DNA from: Nitrospirota bacterium
GTDB taxonomy: Bacteria; Nitrospirota; Thermodesulfovibrionia; Thermodesulfovibrionales; UBA9159
DNA length: 37,404 nt
Assembly (NCBI GenBank): GCA_021790195.1
Contig: JAJYIF010000031.1
Coordinates: 1 to 37,404 of the forward strand
Direction of reading: 5' to 3'
Shown here: piece after piece, positions 31,388 to 37,404 of the stretch
How the letters are laid out: each line of letters begins with the position of its first letter
How positions within the stretch are numbered: position 1 is the first letter of the stretch
Made by a program: the position numbers and the translations under genes
Notes under the pieces: generated by a model
Database searches by the model: none
Seen by the model: the letters and a program-made list of their open reading frames with translations, nothing else
What the model was told of the DNA's origin: nothing

Positions 31388-31723
31388 ATGAGGCTGCAGG
31401 ACCGGAATTCAAAAAGGGCGCAAAGTACGAAAAGTAGAAAGATAGTCACACCCAAATACCTGTCGCTTCTATTGGTTGCCCTTATTTCTTATTCCCTTTT
31501 CATCGCATCTTTCCATCATGAAGAACCCTCAAGTCTGAAGGCCTGCGTCGATTGCAGCATCTGCAATTTCCTTCACAACGCATACTCCGGAGACAATGTA
31601 GATGTCCCTGTCCTCTCGGCTCCTTTCTCCTTCTGGTCGGATTACGGTCCTGAAAGTGACAGCTTCGCCAGCAGCATTGTCGTCTCTTCAATAAGCGGCC
31701 GGTCGCCGCCTCATTCCGCATAA
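31388..31723 (+). CDS. Small membrane-anchored CxxCxxC protein of unknown function
   Basis: The 111-residue protein has a basic N-terminus, one hydrophobic span (YLSLLLVALISYSLFIASF, residues 25-43), then HHEEPSSLKACVDCSICNFLHN, followed by an acidic and serine-rich tail. The CxxCxxC with flanking histidines, exported by the N-terminal anchor, recalls small DUF2946-like metal-associated proteins. It could bind a metal or haem, or serve in haem or copper handling for the cytochrome downstream. There is an AAGGGAG just before the ATG. It is the first gene after the sigma-54 promoter. Confidence 0.65.
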   Translation: MRLQDRNSKRAQSTKSRKIVTPKYLSLLLVALISYSLFIASFHHEEPSSLKACVDCSICNFLHNAYSGDNVDVPVLSAPFSFWSDYGPESDSFASSIVVSSISGRSPPHSA

Positions 31724-31825: not shown

Positions 31826-31870
31826 ATGAAGAAAACTGTTTTCGGTACGGTGATACTAAGTGAGAAATAG
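31826..31870 (+). CDS. Possible 14-residue leader peptide overlapping the cytochrome start
   Basis: ATG at 31826 with an AAGGA about 11 bases upstream encodes MKKTVFGTVILSEK and stops at 31870, 11 bases past the GTG start of the cytochrome in another frame. This layout would couple cytochrome translation to the short frame. It may equally be chance, or a relic of an earlier signal peptide start lost by frameshift. Confidence 0.35.
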   Translation: MKKTVFGTVILSEK

Positions 31871-34800
31871 AAAGAGCGGCTGGATCGCGGGACTCCTGTC
31901 ATTCTTTGCAGCCGCAGGTCTTCTTTTGGTCTGTGCTGACGATTCCGGGGCGATAGGTCCGGGAGACGGCAATCTTCTTAAGCGCTCACCCGAAGAGACC
32001 TGTAATGCCTGTCACAGGACCGATCAGAACACACCTTCTCCCGGCGAAGCCGGCTATGACTCCACGATCTGGCCCAACGCCATTAAGATGCACAGCTCAG
32101 ACAATCTCGGCGCCTGTTCAGGAGCTGATCCCGCCTGCTCGACCTTTGTGACTAAAAGGGGATGCGGGACTGATGTCAGCTGCACATGGACACCGAACAA
32201 GTGGGCCTCCAGCGGGGGATGGGGGACCACCGGAGGTCAATATGGAGCATTTATGTGCACGACGTGCCACACGGCGCACGATACAAGTAATATTTATCTT
32301 ATAAAGGAGCTCATAACTACGCCGGACGCAAGCAACTTCAACTGGGGCTCCACTAACTCGGTGAGCGTTGATTTCAGGGTCAAGTCCGGCGTACCGGCAA
32401 GCGCAGGAACTCAGACGCCGGGTTTAATGGGGGATGATTCCGACACCCATGTAACTTCGTCAAAGGTATGCGAGGTGTGCCACAGTCAGACAAAGTATCA
32501 TAAGTACAACCAAGGTGCGGATTCCGGACACAACAACGCCGCCGACTGCTCGACATGCCACTCGCATAAGGACGCATTCAAACCGGGCTGCAACGCCTGC
32601 CACGGTTATCCGCCGCAGGCGAACACTCCCAGTGTAGGAGGACTCGTATCCGACCCCGCTCCCACCGGGTCTCAGTTCGGTGTCTCGCATATCAAGCATG
32701 CCACAGGGGGAAGCAATTACAGTTTTTCGTGTTATGTATGCCACACAGGGGGAATGACCTCGGCATCCCAGCAGGATTACCAGATCGAGATCGGCTTTAA
32801 TCTGTTCAATGGCGCGTATTCCGGAAATAGTACTACCTATACCGGGCAGTCTCTGACCAACAATTATAGTTATAACTTCACAAACGGGACTTCTCAAGGC
32901 TCGACCCAGTTCGAGTGTACTAATATATATTGCCACGGCGCGACCATGAGCGTTAACGGCGATATGAACGGCGGAACGGACATAACCCCCATGTGGAATG
33001 ACGACCCGACCAACCCGTCGACCGCCGCCTGCGGGGCATGTCACGGTGCGACAGCTGCAAGCCCTCCGCAGAGAGGCAGCCATGCGATACACACGGGCAA
33101 TACATCCACGAAGATCTCTCCGCTGGCGTGCGCAACCTGCCACAGCGCCACAGTGGACGGGACCAATTCTATCATCGACAAGACAAAACATGTAAACAAC
33201 GCCGTGGATTGGATGTTTAGTCCAACCGATAATAGGGTTGCCGGGGCGACTTATAACGGCTCTGCGAGCGGCTCTGAAAGCATGCTGCAGGTGTTCCCGA
33301 GGACTAACTACGGGACCTGCACAAATCTTTACTGCCACAGCAATGCCAACCCGGCGCCCAACCAGAACGACCCGACCAAGACAGTGCCTAATTCCTACAA
33401 GACAGTCACGTGGGGAGGCGCAAACAACCAAACGGACTGCCAGGCAAAAGGCGGGACCTGGGATTCAACGAACAATACCTGCAACAATATGATGAAGTGT
33501 TATTCCTGCCATCAGGGCCGTTTGACGGACAATACGCAAAGCAATTGCTCGACTATCGCCAATACATGGTGGGACACGTATTGTTCAATGCCTGTCATCC
33601 CGCAAAGCATCTGCACGAGCAGTGGAGGCACATGGGACCCTACGCTCTTGTTCTGCAGTATCAGTCAGACCAATTGCCAGAACGCAGGCGGCACATGGGA
33701 CGCGACCTTGGGGGTCTGCCGGGGCATCCAGGAAAGCGCCTGCGACGGTTCCGGAGGTCTCGGCGGAAGATGGGTCCAGCAGTGTATGCAGATCCTGAGC
33801 CAGACCGATTGCAGCGCCAAGAGCGGCACCTGGGACACATATTTTGATCCTACGTCCGGCCAGAACGGCGGGGCCTGCGAAAATGTCGCGGACGTCCTTA
33901 CCATGAGTTCCAACGGCCACCAGCGTCTTGCAGGCCCCAGATGGATCAGACAGTACCCCTGCACTTACTGCCACAGCGCCACCGTGTCGGGAGATAATAC
34001 GACCGGTGTTACGATCAGCGACAAGACACAACACGTCAACGGTATAAAGGACGTAAAGATATCGTCGCAATGGAATGTGGACTGGACGATCCCCGGCCAG
34101 CCGGCGCCTTCGTACGATCCGACCACCAAGGTCTGCTCCAATGTCTATTGCCACAGCGACGGCACTACAAACCCGGAGCAGGTGAGGCCCTTTGCGTGGA
34201 CCCAGAGCGGGGTGGAGTGCAACACTTGCCACGGGCACCCTCAGGGCAGCTGCAACACGAGCGGATGTCATGACGGGACGTCCTCGGGTCAGCCTACTAT
34301 CTGCGCGGGTTCGGGGATCACCCAAAGTGTCTGCGAGGCAAACAACGGCACATGGAACGGGGCATTGAATCTGTGCTACAACCTGCCGTATACCAGCACG
34401 AACGCCAATGTCGCGTCATGCAGCTCTCTCGGCGGCATGGTGGGATGGCCCGCGGGCATGGAATGGATGGCAGCCATGCCTATGTACACGAACACGGGCC
34501 CCGGCACAGCGCGGGCAAACTCTCATCCAAGGCATGTGCAGACAAACTTCACCTGCGATATATGCCATTACAAGACCATAGCCAACGGCGCCTGCACTAA
34601 CTGCCACTCGGGCGGAACGCCTTCGGGCGGCATGAACGAGGCCAACCATGTGAATGCCGCTTATCACGTCAACAAGGTCAAAGACGTCACCTTCCAGGAC
34701 CCGACCTGGAAATATAATGTGAACACGGGCAATCCGACCACTGAAAAGACCTGCCAGAACTCGTGCCACATAGGGGGAAATCCGCAATGGGGCGGCACAT

Positions 34801-37404
34801 TGAGCGACAGCGCCACTGTCTGTCTTGCCTGCCACGGGACCTCGGGCCCCGATGTGGACTATGTGACCTCCGGGAACTTCACAGGTTTCAACGGGAACTT
34901 CATAGGCTCCCTGAGCACCAGGCCCATGATCAACCTTACCGAATGGACCACCAGCGGCCACGGCAGGCCCGCGTCGGCCGGCAACTATCCCTATTCGGGC
35001 AACCCGCCCGCCAACTTCCCGAGCAACCCCTGCTGGTACTGTCACGACAACAACGTCCTGCACATGGATTCCACAAATCCCTACAGGCTGAAGAAGCACG
35101 ATGAATATCAGCAGAGGTTCAACAAGGAGTGCGTCTACTGCCATATGCAGGGGATAGACAGCGAATGTCTCGGCTGCCACGACAGCGTAAATTCCCTCGC
35201 GCCCCAGCTGGGCACTATAACAGCCGACTCTTCTGTGCTGACATGGACGGACGGCACGACTCTCGACACGACCGCCTATCCCAACGGGCGTCCCGACCAT
35301 ACCGGATATATCGATGCGAACGGCAACCTGACCTCGCCGTCCAACTCGTGCGTCTCTTGTCATACCGCCGACGGCAGACGGCATAACACAGGGGCCGGCC
35401 TCTGGACAGCGGCCCAGCAGGCGGATGTCAAAAACCAGTACATATGGATGGGCGTTTGTCTGAAGTGCCACGAGGACGACGGACCCGGCTATACCGACAG
35501 TTCGAATGTCTATCATTCCAGCGGCTCGTATTGCTACGGGTGTCACTCGGATTACGGTCAGCCCGGCTCGATACACACCCTTGGCTATGACCCCGGCACA
35601 GGTTACATAAAGGCGCAGAAGGCGAAGGCGACATCGGCGCATTTCGGCTACAAGCATTACAACTATTTCCTGGATACGGGTGGATGGAACTCCAACGGCA
35701 CGTGGAAAGGCGGGAAGTTCTGCTGGGACTGTCACGACCCTCACGGCGACCAGGACGCAAACGGAAATCCGAACATCTACATGATCCAGAGGAACGTGGC
35801 GACTTCCACGGACGGCAAATACGGCATACCGCGTACGATCGGAGCTGTCTCATTTACCCAGAAGACGGCGGGGACCGATTATGCCAGAAGCTCATATCCG
35901 TATAACGGCATATGCAATGTCTGCCACCAGGTCCTGACTAACGGCACCAATTACAGCTGTACCATTTCTCAATATACGGACCAGGCCTCATGCCAGGCAA
36001 ACGGCGGTACCTGGAGCAACGGCGTCCAGGCAAAACATTATACCAATAGCAGCGGTGACCACCACAACGAAGGAAAGATATGCACCCAGTGCCACAACCA
36101 CAGGTTCACAGACAGCCATTCGTCCGGTCTTGTATGCAATACATGCCATTTGAACAAGCCGATACCGAGGCATACAGCCTTCGGCCTTCCGAGGGACTGC
36201 ACCAAATGCCATAACGGTTCGATCGGCGGACGAATGGACATCGTGGGCCAGATGAACGGCAATTCCCACCATGTCCAGGGCGTTGCCCTCTCGAACAAAT
36301 ATTGCTACGCCTGTCACTGGGAGGCCACGCCGCTCGGTCTCATCAACACTACCTATCACTTAGGCTATAACTACAAGACGTATACGAGCACCCCTAATGC
36401 CCCCGTGTCCCTGGTCATATGGGGACCGGGCACGAGGCCGGTCAATTATTCCCTGACCGCTTCCGTGGTCCTTGGGACCGATGGAAATACTTACACTTGC
36501 ACGCAGGGCCATACCGCTTCAAGCGATAACGAGCCTGTGACTGGAGCGAACTGGTCGCAGTATTGGACGCTGGGCGGCTCAGGCGGCGTCGCCTGGTCGG
36601 TGGGGACGCAATATACTCCCGCGACCGCTACGACTTTCCTTGCCAGCAATGTGGGCACTGCGAGCGAGAGGAGCGAGATCTCCAAGATTACGAACGTCTG
36701 TCTCGGCTGCCACAGCGATCAAAATAATAATACGAAGCCGTTCGGATACTGCAGCATCCCGGCCACCAATCAAAGCGGAACGGTCCTGACCACGCAAGCT
36801 GCCTGCACTTCTGCCGGCGGCTCGTGGGCCACGGGTGTCTGCTACCTGACATCGCAGACTGCCTGCGCCGCAGCCGGCGGAACATGGATCAGTGACTGCA
36901 AGGTGCCCAGACAATATTCGTGGGACAAGCAGAGCATCGCGGCCCGCTATACCCAGAAAGGGACCACAACGTGGGGCAAATATCCAAACATTTCTCACGC
37001 CCTCATCATGCCGATGGATGAGACATCGTGGAACGGTACGTCGGGAGAAGTGAAAGATAAATCGCCGAACGGCAACAACGGCACGGCATATGGCGGGGCC
37101 AATACTGTGGAGTGGGGAAGATTCGAGAGGGCGGGGAGCTTCAACGGCGCGAACTACGTGACCGTCAATAACAGCGCGAGCCTTAACCCCACGTCAATTA
37201 CAATCACAGCGTGGGTGTATATATCGAGCACGCCTACCGCAAGCGGGAACATTGTGTCAAAGGGCGACAACAGCGGCTATCGTTTCAGGATAAGCAACAA
37301 TGGGACCGTGGCATGGTTCGATCGGGGCTGTGGAAGCAACGGGGTTGGAAGTTGCATTTCAAGCAAAGGACTGATTTCGTTGAATGCGTGGACGCTGATA
37401 GCAG
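31860..37404 (+). CDS. Giant multihaem c-type cytochrome (at least 32 haems) with Cys-GGTW repeats and a LamG-like domain; C-terminus beyond the window
   Basis: The frame starts at GTG 31860 (GGTGAT five bases upstream, in-frame stop just before) and has no stop to the last base, so at least 1848 residues. The N-terminus is a Sec signal (RNRKSGWIAGLLSFFAAAGLLLV). From 32001 to 36713 I count 32 haem motifs: 27 CXXCH, four CX4CH (32916, 33318, 34134, 34251) and one CX3CH (34752). The CX4CH form (CSNVYCH, CTNIYCH) is that of the Geobacter CxxxxCH/CXXCH family. Non-haem Cys-x3-GGTW repeats are inserted, mainly at 33432-34380. From about residue 1714 a LamG/concanavalin-like sandwich begins (GEVKDKSPNGNNG, FNGANYVTV, ITITAWVYIS). 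It is most likely a secreted or outer-surface electron conduit. Confidence 0.9.
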   Translation, partial: MRNRKSGWIAGLLSFFAAAGLLLVCADDSGAIGPGDGNLLKRSPEETCNACHRTDQNTPSPGEAGYDSTIWPNAIKMHSSDNLGACSGADPACSTFVTKRGCGTDVSCTWTPNKWASSGGWGTTGGQYGAFMCTTCHTAHDTSNIYLIKELITTPDASNFNWGSTNSVSVDFRVKSGVPASAGTQTPGLMGDDSDTHVTSSKVCEVCHSQTKYHKYNQGADSGHNNAADCSTCHSHKDAFKPGCNACHGYPPQANTPSVGGLVSDPAPTGSQFGVSHIKHATGGSNYSFSCYVCHTGGMTSASQQDYQIEIGFNLFNGAYSGNSTTYTGQSLTNNYSYNFTNGTSQGSTQFECTNIYCHGATMSVNGDMNGGTDITPMWNDDPTNPSTAACGACHGATAASPPQRGSHAIHTGNTSTKISPLACATCHSATVDGTNSIIDKTKHVNNAVDWMFSPTDNRVAGATYNGSASGSESMLQVFPRTNYGTCTNLYCHSNANPAPNQNDPTKTVPNSYKTVTWGGANNQTDCQAKGGTWDSTNNTCNNMMKCYSCHQGRLTDNTQSNCSTIANTWWDTYCSMPVIPQSICTSSGGTWDPTLLFCSISQTNCQNAGGTWDATLGVCRGIQESACDGSGGLGGRWVQQCMQILSQTDCSAKSGTWDTYFDPTSGQNGGACENVADVLTMSSNGHQRLAGPRWIRQYPCTYCHSATVSGDNTTGVTISDKTQHVNGIKDVKISSQWNVDWTIPGQPAPSYDPTTKVCSNVYCHSDGTTNPEQVRPFAWTQSGVECNTCHGHPQGSCNTSGCHDGTSSGQPTICAGSGITQSVCEANNGTWNGALNLCYNLPYTSTNANVASCSSLGGMVGWPAGMEWMAAMPMYTNTGPGTARANSHPRHVQTNFTCDICHYKTIANGACTNCHSGGTPSGGMNEANHVNAAYHVNKVKDVTFQDPTWKYNVNTGNPTTEKTCQNSCHIGGNPQWGGTLSDSATVCLACHGTSGPDVDYVTSGNFTGFNGNFIGSLSTRPMINLTEWTTSGHGRPASAGNYPYSGNPPANFPSNPCWYCHDNNVLHMDSTNPYRLKKHDEYQQRFNKECVYCHMQGIDSECLGCHDSVNSLAPQLGTITADSSVLTWTDGTTLDTTAYPNGRPDHTGYIDANGNLTSPSNSCVSCHTADGRRHNTGAGLWTAAQQADVKNQYIWMGVCLKCHEDDGPGYTDSSNVYHSSGSYCYGCHSDYGQPGSIHTLGYDPGTGYIKAQKAKATSAHFGYKHYNYFLDTGGWNSNGTWKGGKFCWDCHDPHGDQDANGNPNIYMIQRNVATSTDGKYGIPRTIGAVSFTQKTAGTDYARSSYPYNGICNVCHQVLTNGTNYSCTISQYTDQASCQANGGTWSNGVQAKHYTNSSGDHHNEGKICTQCHNHRFTDSHSSGLVCNTCHLNKPIPRHTAFGLPRDCTKCHNGSIGGRMDIVGQMNGNSHHVQGVALSNKYCYACHWEATPLGLINTTYHLGYNYKTYTSTPNAPVSLVIWGPGTRPVNYSLTASVVLGTDGNTYTCTQGHTASSDNEPVTGANWSQYWTLGGSGGVAWSVGTQYTPATATTFLASNVGTASERSEISKITNVCLGCHSDQNNNTKPFGYCSIPATNQSGTVLTTQAACTSAGGSWATGVCYLTSQTACAAAGGTWISDCKVPRQYSWDKQSIAARYTQKGTTTWGKYPNISHALIMPMDETSWNGTSGEVKDKSPNGNNGTAYGGANTVEWGRFERAGSFNGANYVTVNNSASLNPTSITITAWVYISSTPTASGNIVSKGDNSGYRFRISNNGTVAWFDRGCGSNGVGSCISSKGLISLNAWTLIA
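33432..34380 (+). repeat. Cluster of Cys-x3-GGTW repeats inside the cytochrome
   Basis: Units of the form [ST]-x-C-x3-[GS]-G-T-W-x(3-14)-C occur here several times: TDCQAKGGTW, SICTSSGGTW, TNCQNAGGTW, TDCSAKSGTW and SVCEANNGTW, plus degenerate copies. Further units are at about 35985-36020 and 36799-36900. The two cysteines are not in haem motifs and probably form a disulfide. The repeats lie between haem clusters. Confidence 0.75.
36999..37404 (+). other. LamG-like jelly-roll domain of the cytochrome (partial)
   Basis: The sequence from about residue 1714 follows the pattern of LamG/concanavalin A-like domains: LIMPMDE, then DKSPNGNNGTAYGG, then FNGANYVTVNNS, SITITAWVYI, NIVSKGDNSGYRFRI, and LNAWTLIA at the edge. 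Such domains bind carbohydrate or protein ligands at the cell surface. Confidence 0.75.

Follow-up and report, generated by a model that had tools for sequence, protein, structure and literature searches.

The DNA analysed here, a window of 37,404 nucleotides from a Nitrospirota genome assembly, ends inside a frame in which 32 haem-attachment motifs are followed by a LamG-like domain, and this raises the question of what an adhesion-type domain is doing in a very large multihaem cytochrome. A first-pass annotation, made from the window alone, had taken the LamG-like fold to be terminal and had proposed that the conductive protein carries a docking module of its own. The window is an entire contig, C16 (G000:C16), of a 3.3-Mb genome in 54 contigs that is 96% complete, and the frame is still open where the contig ends at position 37404.

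The cytochrome frame and its continuation

The frame runs on the forward strand from a GTG start at 31860 to 37403 (1,848 codons) and forms the 5′ part of a giant multihaem cytochrome gene (31860-37404), the rest of which we place on contig C1. The start codon is uncertain, since the GTG stands immediately after a TAA; a putative N-terminal signal sequence, MRNRKSGWIAGLLSFFAAAGLLLVCADDSGA, was read by eye at 31860-31956 (+). The 32 motifs found by motif search occupy residues 48-1618 (32001-36716, +), and a recount gave the same composition as the first-pass annotation, with 27 CXXCH, four CX4CH and one CX3CH (CQNSCH, at residue 965) in a single open frame. When the protein was shuffled 2,000 times, a mean of 0.56 and a maximum of 5 haem motifs were obtained, compared with 32 in the real protein, in which the reversed motif HC..C had no occurrence. 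A check for frameshifts found none, the frame being colinear with the complete paralogue on contig C33 of the same genome and with about 35 relatives. The window protein scored over the cut-offs of both the NCBIfam profile TIGR01904 (59.8 bits, cut-off 27) and the Pfam profile PF09698 (42.7 bits, cut-off 21.7), in agreement with its first reading as a very large multihaem cytochrome of the kind tied to extracellular electron transfer. No PDB chain matched the cytochrome at E <= 0.001, and hence no homology to the filament subunits OmcS, OmcE and OmcZ was found.

Cys-rich mini-insertions of a C-x3-GGTW type, recognised by sequence pattern, lie between the haem motifs at 33438-33461, 33612-33635 and 33675-33698 (+), with more at 35991-36014 and 36864-36887 (+). 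The corresponding DNA pattern has 12 copies in the 3.3-Mb genome (control hits, 0), all of them in cytochrome paralogues or in a giant partner protein described below (contigs C1, C13, C16, C33 and C52), and related cytochromes contain 0-1 similar Cys-rich motifs each. Directly 5′ of the cytochrome, a 111-aa frame (31388-31723, +), in which one segment is membrane-like and Cys residues are clustered, had no Pfam match.

Contigs C13 and C1 each have an end identical to the last 127 bp of the window (37278-37404), as expected from a branch in a k=127 assembly graph, and contig comparison thus marks an assembly-graph break at sequence shared by two paralogues. When C16 was read into C1, the frame was kept, the LamG domain was completed, and five more CXXCH motifs were followed by a stop codon, so that the stop expected beyond the contig end was reached, through a presumed join, in a protein of 2,386 aa with 37 haem sites. 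Contig C13 holds a paralogue with the same LamG domain that ends in the identical 127 bp, and the C1 tail would therefore be a property of one of the two paralogues, C16 or C13. Assigning it to C16 over C13 was considered and found unsupported, as both share the 127 bp and the bin has no second continuation. The layout of the protein is independent of this choice, since the tail of the complete paralogue on C33, which has 36 haem sites and no LamG, follows the identical order.

A scan of a genome collection returned 44 loci of this family, from Geobacter, Geotalea, Nitrospirota (Thermodesulfovibrionia), Desulfobulbaceae and others; two of them, L072 (Nitrospiraceae SURF_66) and L075 (a Thermodesulfovibrionia MAG), coincide in coordinates and frame length with class members G226 and G229. 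The 28 closed family frames have 31-56 haem sites, with medians of 35 haems and 1,648 aa. The window protein is colinear with Geobacter loci L071, L079, L083 and others, and its Geobacter relatives are 43-58% identical across the C-terminal part. By sequence it belongs to a known kind, the GSu_C4xC cytochromes with ~34 haems that occur in Geobacter and Nitrospirota. It resembles the GSu_C4xC__C2xCH cytochromes (TIGR01904/PF09698) in its CX4CH/CXXCH repeats and in having about 34-37 haems, and differs from those of Geobacter in a ~227-aa LamG insert, in its many Cys-rich mini-insertions and in coming from another phylum. Cytochromes with 34-37 haems have already been noted from Geobacter genomes (PMC2996986), and an effect on electron transfer between species has been described for Gmet_0581 (34 haems, 63% to OmcN, with an Ig-like domain) and for Gmet_0571 (34 haems; PMC10989804). 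The likeness to OmcN and OmcO of Geobacter is one of size and haem number. The longest family members are L099 4127-11347, with 53 haem sites, and L113 3926-11650, with 56. Three further cytochromes from the order, at L193 3154-10719 (+), L198 1-6846 (+) and L194 3035-10141 (-), contain 55-60 CX2-4CH motifs per frame, which exceeds the earlier maximum of 45 haems cited in PMC5566968.

An internal LamG domain in a variable loop

A LamG fold had been suspected beyond residue 1714, and it is real: Laminin_G_3 (PF13385) matched the window protein at residues 1762-1848 (37143-37404, +), covering profile positions 2-85 of 151, and in the joined protein the match was complete (residues 1762-1913, profile positions 2-151 of 151, 117.1 bits, E 9.8e-34, over the cut-off). 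The description of the domain as terminal did not hold: haem sites 32 and 33 flank it, and its apparent end is the assembly break. The domain belongs to an insert of ~227 residues (1709-1935 of the joined protein), the start of which occupies 36984-37404 (+), in a loop between GTTTWGKY and NFTKAFSAHGNA. At the insertion point C33 reads GTTTWGKYTDQTNAAKKNFTKAYSAHGNA, and C16 reads GTTTWGKY, then the ~227 residues with LamG, then NFTKAFSAHGNA. Both flanks of the loop are conserved in Geobacter and Nitrospirota, and the linker between them is short and variable. In an alignment of 38 sequences, no insert at the position of the C16 LamG loop was found in relatives outside its own genome; the insert is missing from the paralogue C33 and from 35 relatives, and LamG within the haem region is confined to two genes of one genome. 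Since the insert falls in the variable linker that separates haem site 32 from haem site 33, the chain of haems could stay unbroken if LamG is looped out, and the loop would then be exposed.

The closest solved sequence to the joined LamG was 4qvs, from an S-layer protein of Clostridium thermocellum (E 5.4e-8), a domain similar in sequence but free of any cytochrome. The truncated LamG gave an all-beta AlphaFold model (pLDDT 63) with a weak best Foldseek match, again to 4qvs (E 0.42). Judged on these comparisons, the likeness to an S-layer domain fits a surface role and proves none. For the 603 C-terminal residues of the family, AlphaFold run on 29 sequences gave a model with a pLDDT of 34, which was discarded.

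The DNA of C16 and C13 is mostly 44-81% identical up to about 36,890 and 86-100% identical from there on, a jump which indicates that the LamG block was recently copied from one gene to the other. An overlap of exactly 127 bp also joins the paralogue ends C35/C49 and C34/C3, suggesting that exchange among these genes is frequent. A LamG tree, made to find the donor, was without resolution. In the same order, the cytochrome of G116 (L144 9446-11965, -) is interrupted at this point of the loop by an unrelated insert of 224 aa; this was tried as a LamG, with no Pfam match and an hhalign probability below 1%, and was left unclassified. The G116 contig (L144) also ends just upstream of the 224-aa insert.

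A haem-free giant encoded downstream of the cytochrome

A porin partner, which the first-pass annotation had suggested looking for downstream, is absent next to the cytochrome, and the genes downstream on C1 encode a giant propeller/fn3 protein, a chemotaxis receptor and others. A homologous haem-free propeller/fn3 protein is encoded directly 3′ of the cytochrome, on the same strand, in 40 of the 43 loci with at least 1.5 kb beyond the cytochrome stop, and its frame starts -393 to +70 bp from that stop. Three loci (L078, L086 and L092) are without an adjoining partner. The 27 partner frames that are closed encode 1,387-3,355 aa (median 2,346); in the others the available sequence ends before the frame closes. 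A reverse search with the partner across the class recovered nine full-length copies, each of them directly after a family cytochrome, as are both full-length partners of the window's own genome (on C1 and C33). The partners have an apparent signal sequence, SBBP propeller repeats and many fn3 domains, sometimes with LamG or DUF2341, and a C-terminus that often reads ...YRVRA...SPYSN...GTC. Neither the C1 partner, which follows the joined gene, nor the C33 partner had a PF13385 match. A second type of Cys-rich insertion, C-x6-9-C-x2-DxDC-x4-7-C, is repeated in the propeller region of the C1 partner (L040 9287-17464, -). On the 5′ side, the cytochrome is preceded by genes for sugar-nucleotide enzymes and Sua5/YrdC, and a search at Rfam gathering scores found no GEMM or other riboswitches near the cytochromes of the window's genome and seven relatives.

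An operon of 16-haem and 26-haem cytochromes likewise places a secreted six-bladed beta-propeller protein beside large cytochromes (PMC5539420). Going by its description, that operon differs from the arrangement reported here, in which a single ~35-haem cytochrome is directly followed by a partner that is usually 2,000-3,400 aa long and contains fn3, often together with LamG or DUF2341. No description of the pairing of cytochrome and giant partner was found in the literature searched; the two-gene arrangement is a more general finding than the LamG insert, and it too appears to be undescribed.

Elsewhere among the relatives, LamG occurs inside the partner giants of L072, L087, L089 and L096, and in G172 it stands past the cytochrome C-terminus, where it is followed by an fn3-like domain. 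In G166, a single frame of 2,694 aa unites 26 haems, an SBBP propeller, TSP3 repeats, an Ig-like domain and two LamG domains, and is a Rosetta-stone fusion of the components of cytochrome and partner. Other cytochromes in the order end in a beta-helix with Calx-beta or in Big_2 domains, and the paralogue C34 of the window's own genome ends in fn3-like repeats (read by eye). Across these relatives the LamG, fn3-like, beta-helix/Calx-beta and Big_2 cases indicate that adhesion-type additions recur in such cytochromes, LamG being one among several. Multihaem cytochromes with an adhesion-type beta-sandwich, as in the C16 protein, have been described: OetF of syntrophic sulfate reducers has fibronectin domains and a proposed docking role (PMC10553843), and a 24-haem cytochrome of Geoalkalibacter has N-terminal fibronectin domains (PMC12016550). 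Compared by description, both carry fibronectin domains, unlike the internal LamG of C16. The literature searched held no relevant paper on LamG or laminin G with multihaem cytochromes, and within it the insertion of LamG in such a cytochrome appears undescribed.

Proposed role of the cytochrome and its partner

Given this architecture, we consider it rather probable that the gene product is a conductor which is secreted and works alongside an adhesive partner, and that LamG would be one interchangeable docking part. The predicted product, a secreted conductor of ~37 haems, would be made together with the haem-free beta-propeller/fibronectin giant encoded directly downstream, and the two would probably form a single extracellular or outer-surface complex. 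Electrons would pass along the chain of haems and reach an extracellular acceptor, as family knowledge suggests, and the beta-rich partner would hold or display the cytochrome. The LamG domain is predicted most likely to bind a glycan or protein of a matrix, of a mineral-attached film or of a neighbouring cell. The earlier proposal of a docking module built into the conductor is plausible in wording that allows for an internal domain, with docking itself a presumed function.

Other explanations of the LamG domain deserve weight. It might instead be an assembly interface, packing on the giant propeller/fn3 partner or on a second cytochrome copy and stabilising the complex, a reading we regard as unlikely but worth keeping in view. 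Several relatives have LamG and fn3 in the adjoining partner, G166 has all of these parts in one polypeptide, and the C1 partner is without PF13385, a gap that the cytochrome may fill; against this, most family cytochromes work without LamG, and C33 and its own partner both have no PF13385. It is distinctly less probable that the insert is neutral decoration, a passenger spread by recombination between repeated genes into a GTTTWGKY/NFTKAF loop that tolerates inserts. The jump in C16/C13 identity near 36,890, the 127 bp shared by the C35/C49 and C34/C3 ends of genes that seem to recombine often, and the unrelated insert of G116 at the same point would all suit a passenger. The insert, however, is in frame and keeps the full PF13385 profile, and adhesion-type domains recur in the cytochrome class in many forms.

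That the C16 cytochrome and the LamG domain come from different genes and were falsely joined in assembly is very improbable, even with a contig that ends in a 127-bp repeat common to three contigs. From the start of the insert it is about 290 bp to the shared 127-bp stretch, in frame and in sequence where C16 differs from C13 at single sites, the same junction is seen independently in C13, and LamG is found in the cytochrome class of other genomes too.

The reading of a secreted conductor with an adhesive partner can be extended, more tentatively, to the family. It is possible, though we would not yet rely on it, that these genes encode a widespread and so far undescribed two-protein machine, in which a giant haem-free beta-propeller/fibronectin scaffold would be the obligate partner of a ~35-haem conductor, and adhesive domains, LamG and others, moving from one protein to the other, would set the surface or cell to which the conductor docks. 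The Geobacter cytochromes with 34-37 haems are long known and have neither a solved structure (none by sequence) nor a clear mechanism, and the tightly linked giant, present in two phyla, is a concrete partner to test for them. Natural variants have LamG within the cytochrome, behind it, in the partner, or with all parts in one protein, and they suggest how these cells might select and keep hold of a partner cell or an acceptor for electrons.

One further observation concerns the same genome. Contig C13 carries a SECIS_3 element (Rfam, 85.6 bits; L010 11983-12041, -), and the organism therefore probably makes a selenoprotein.
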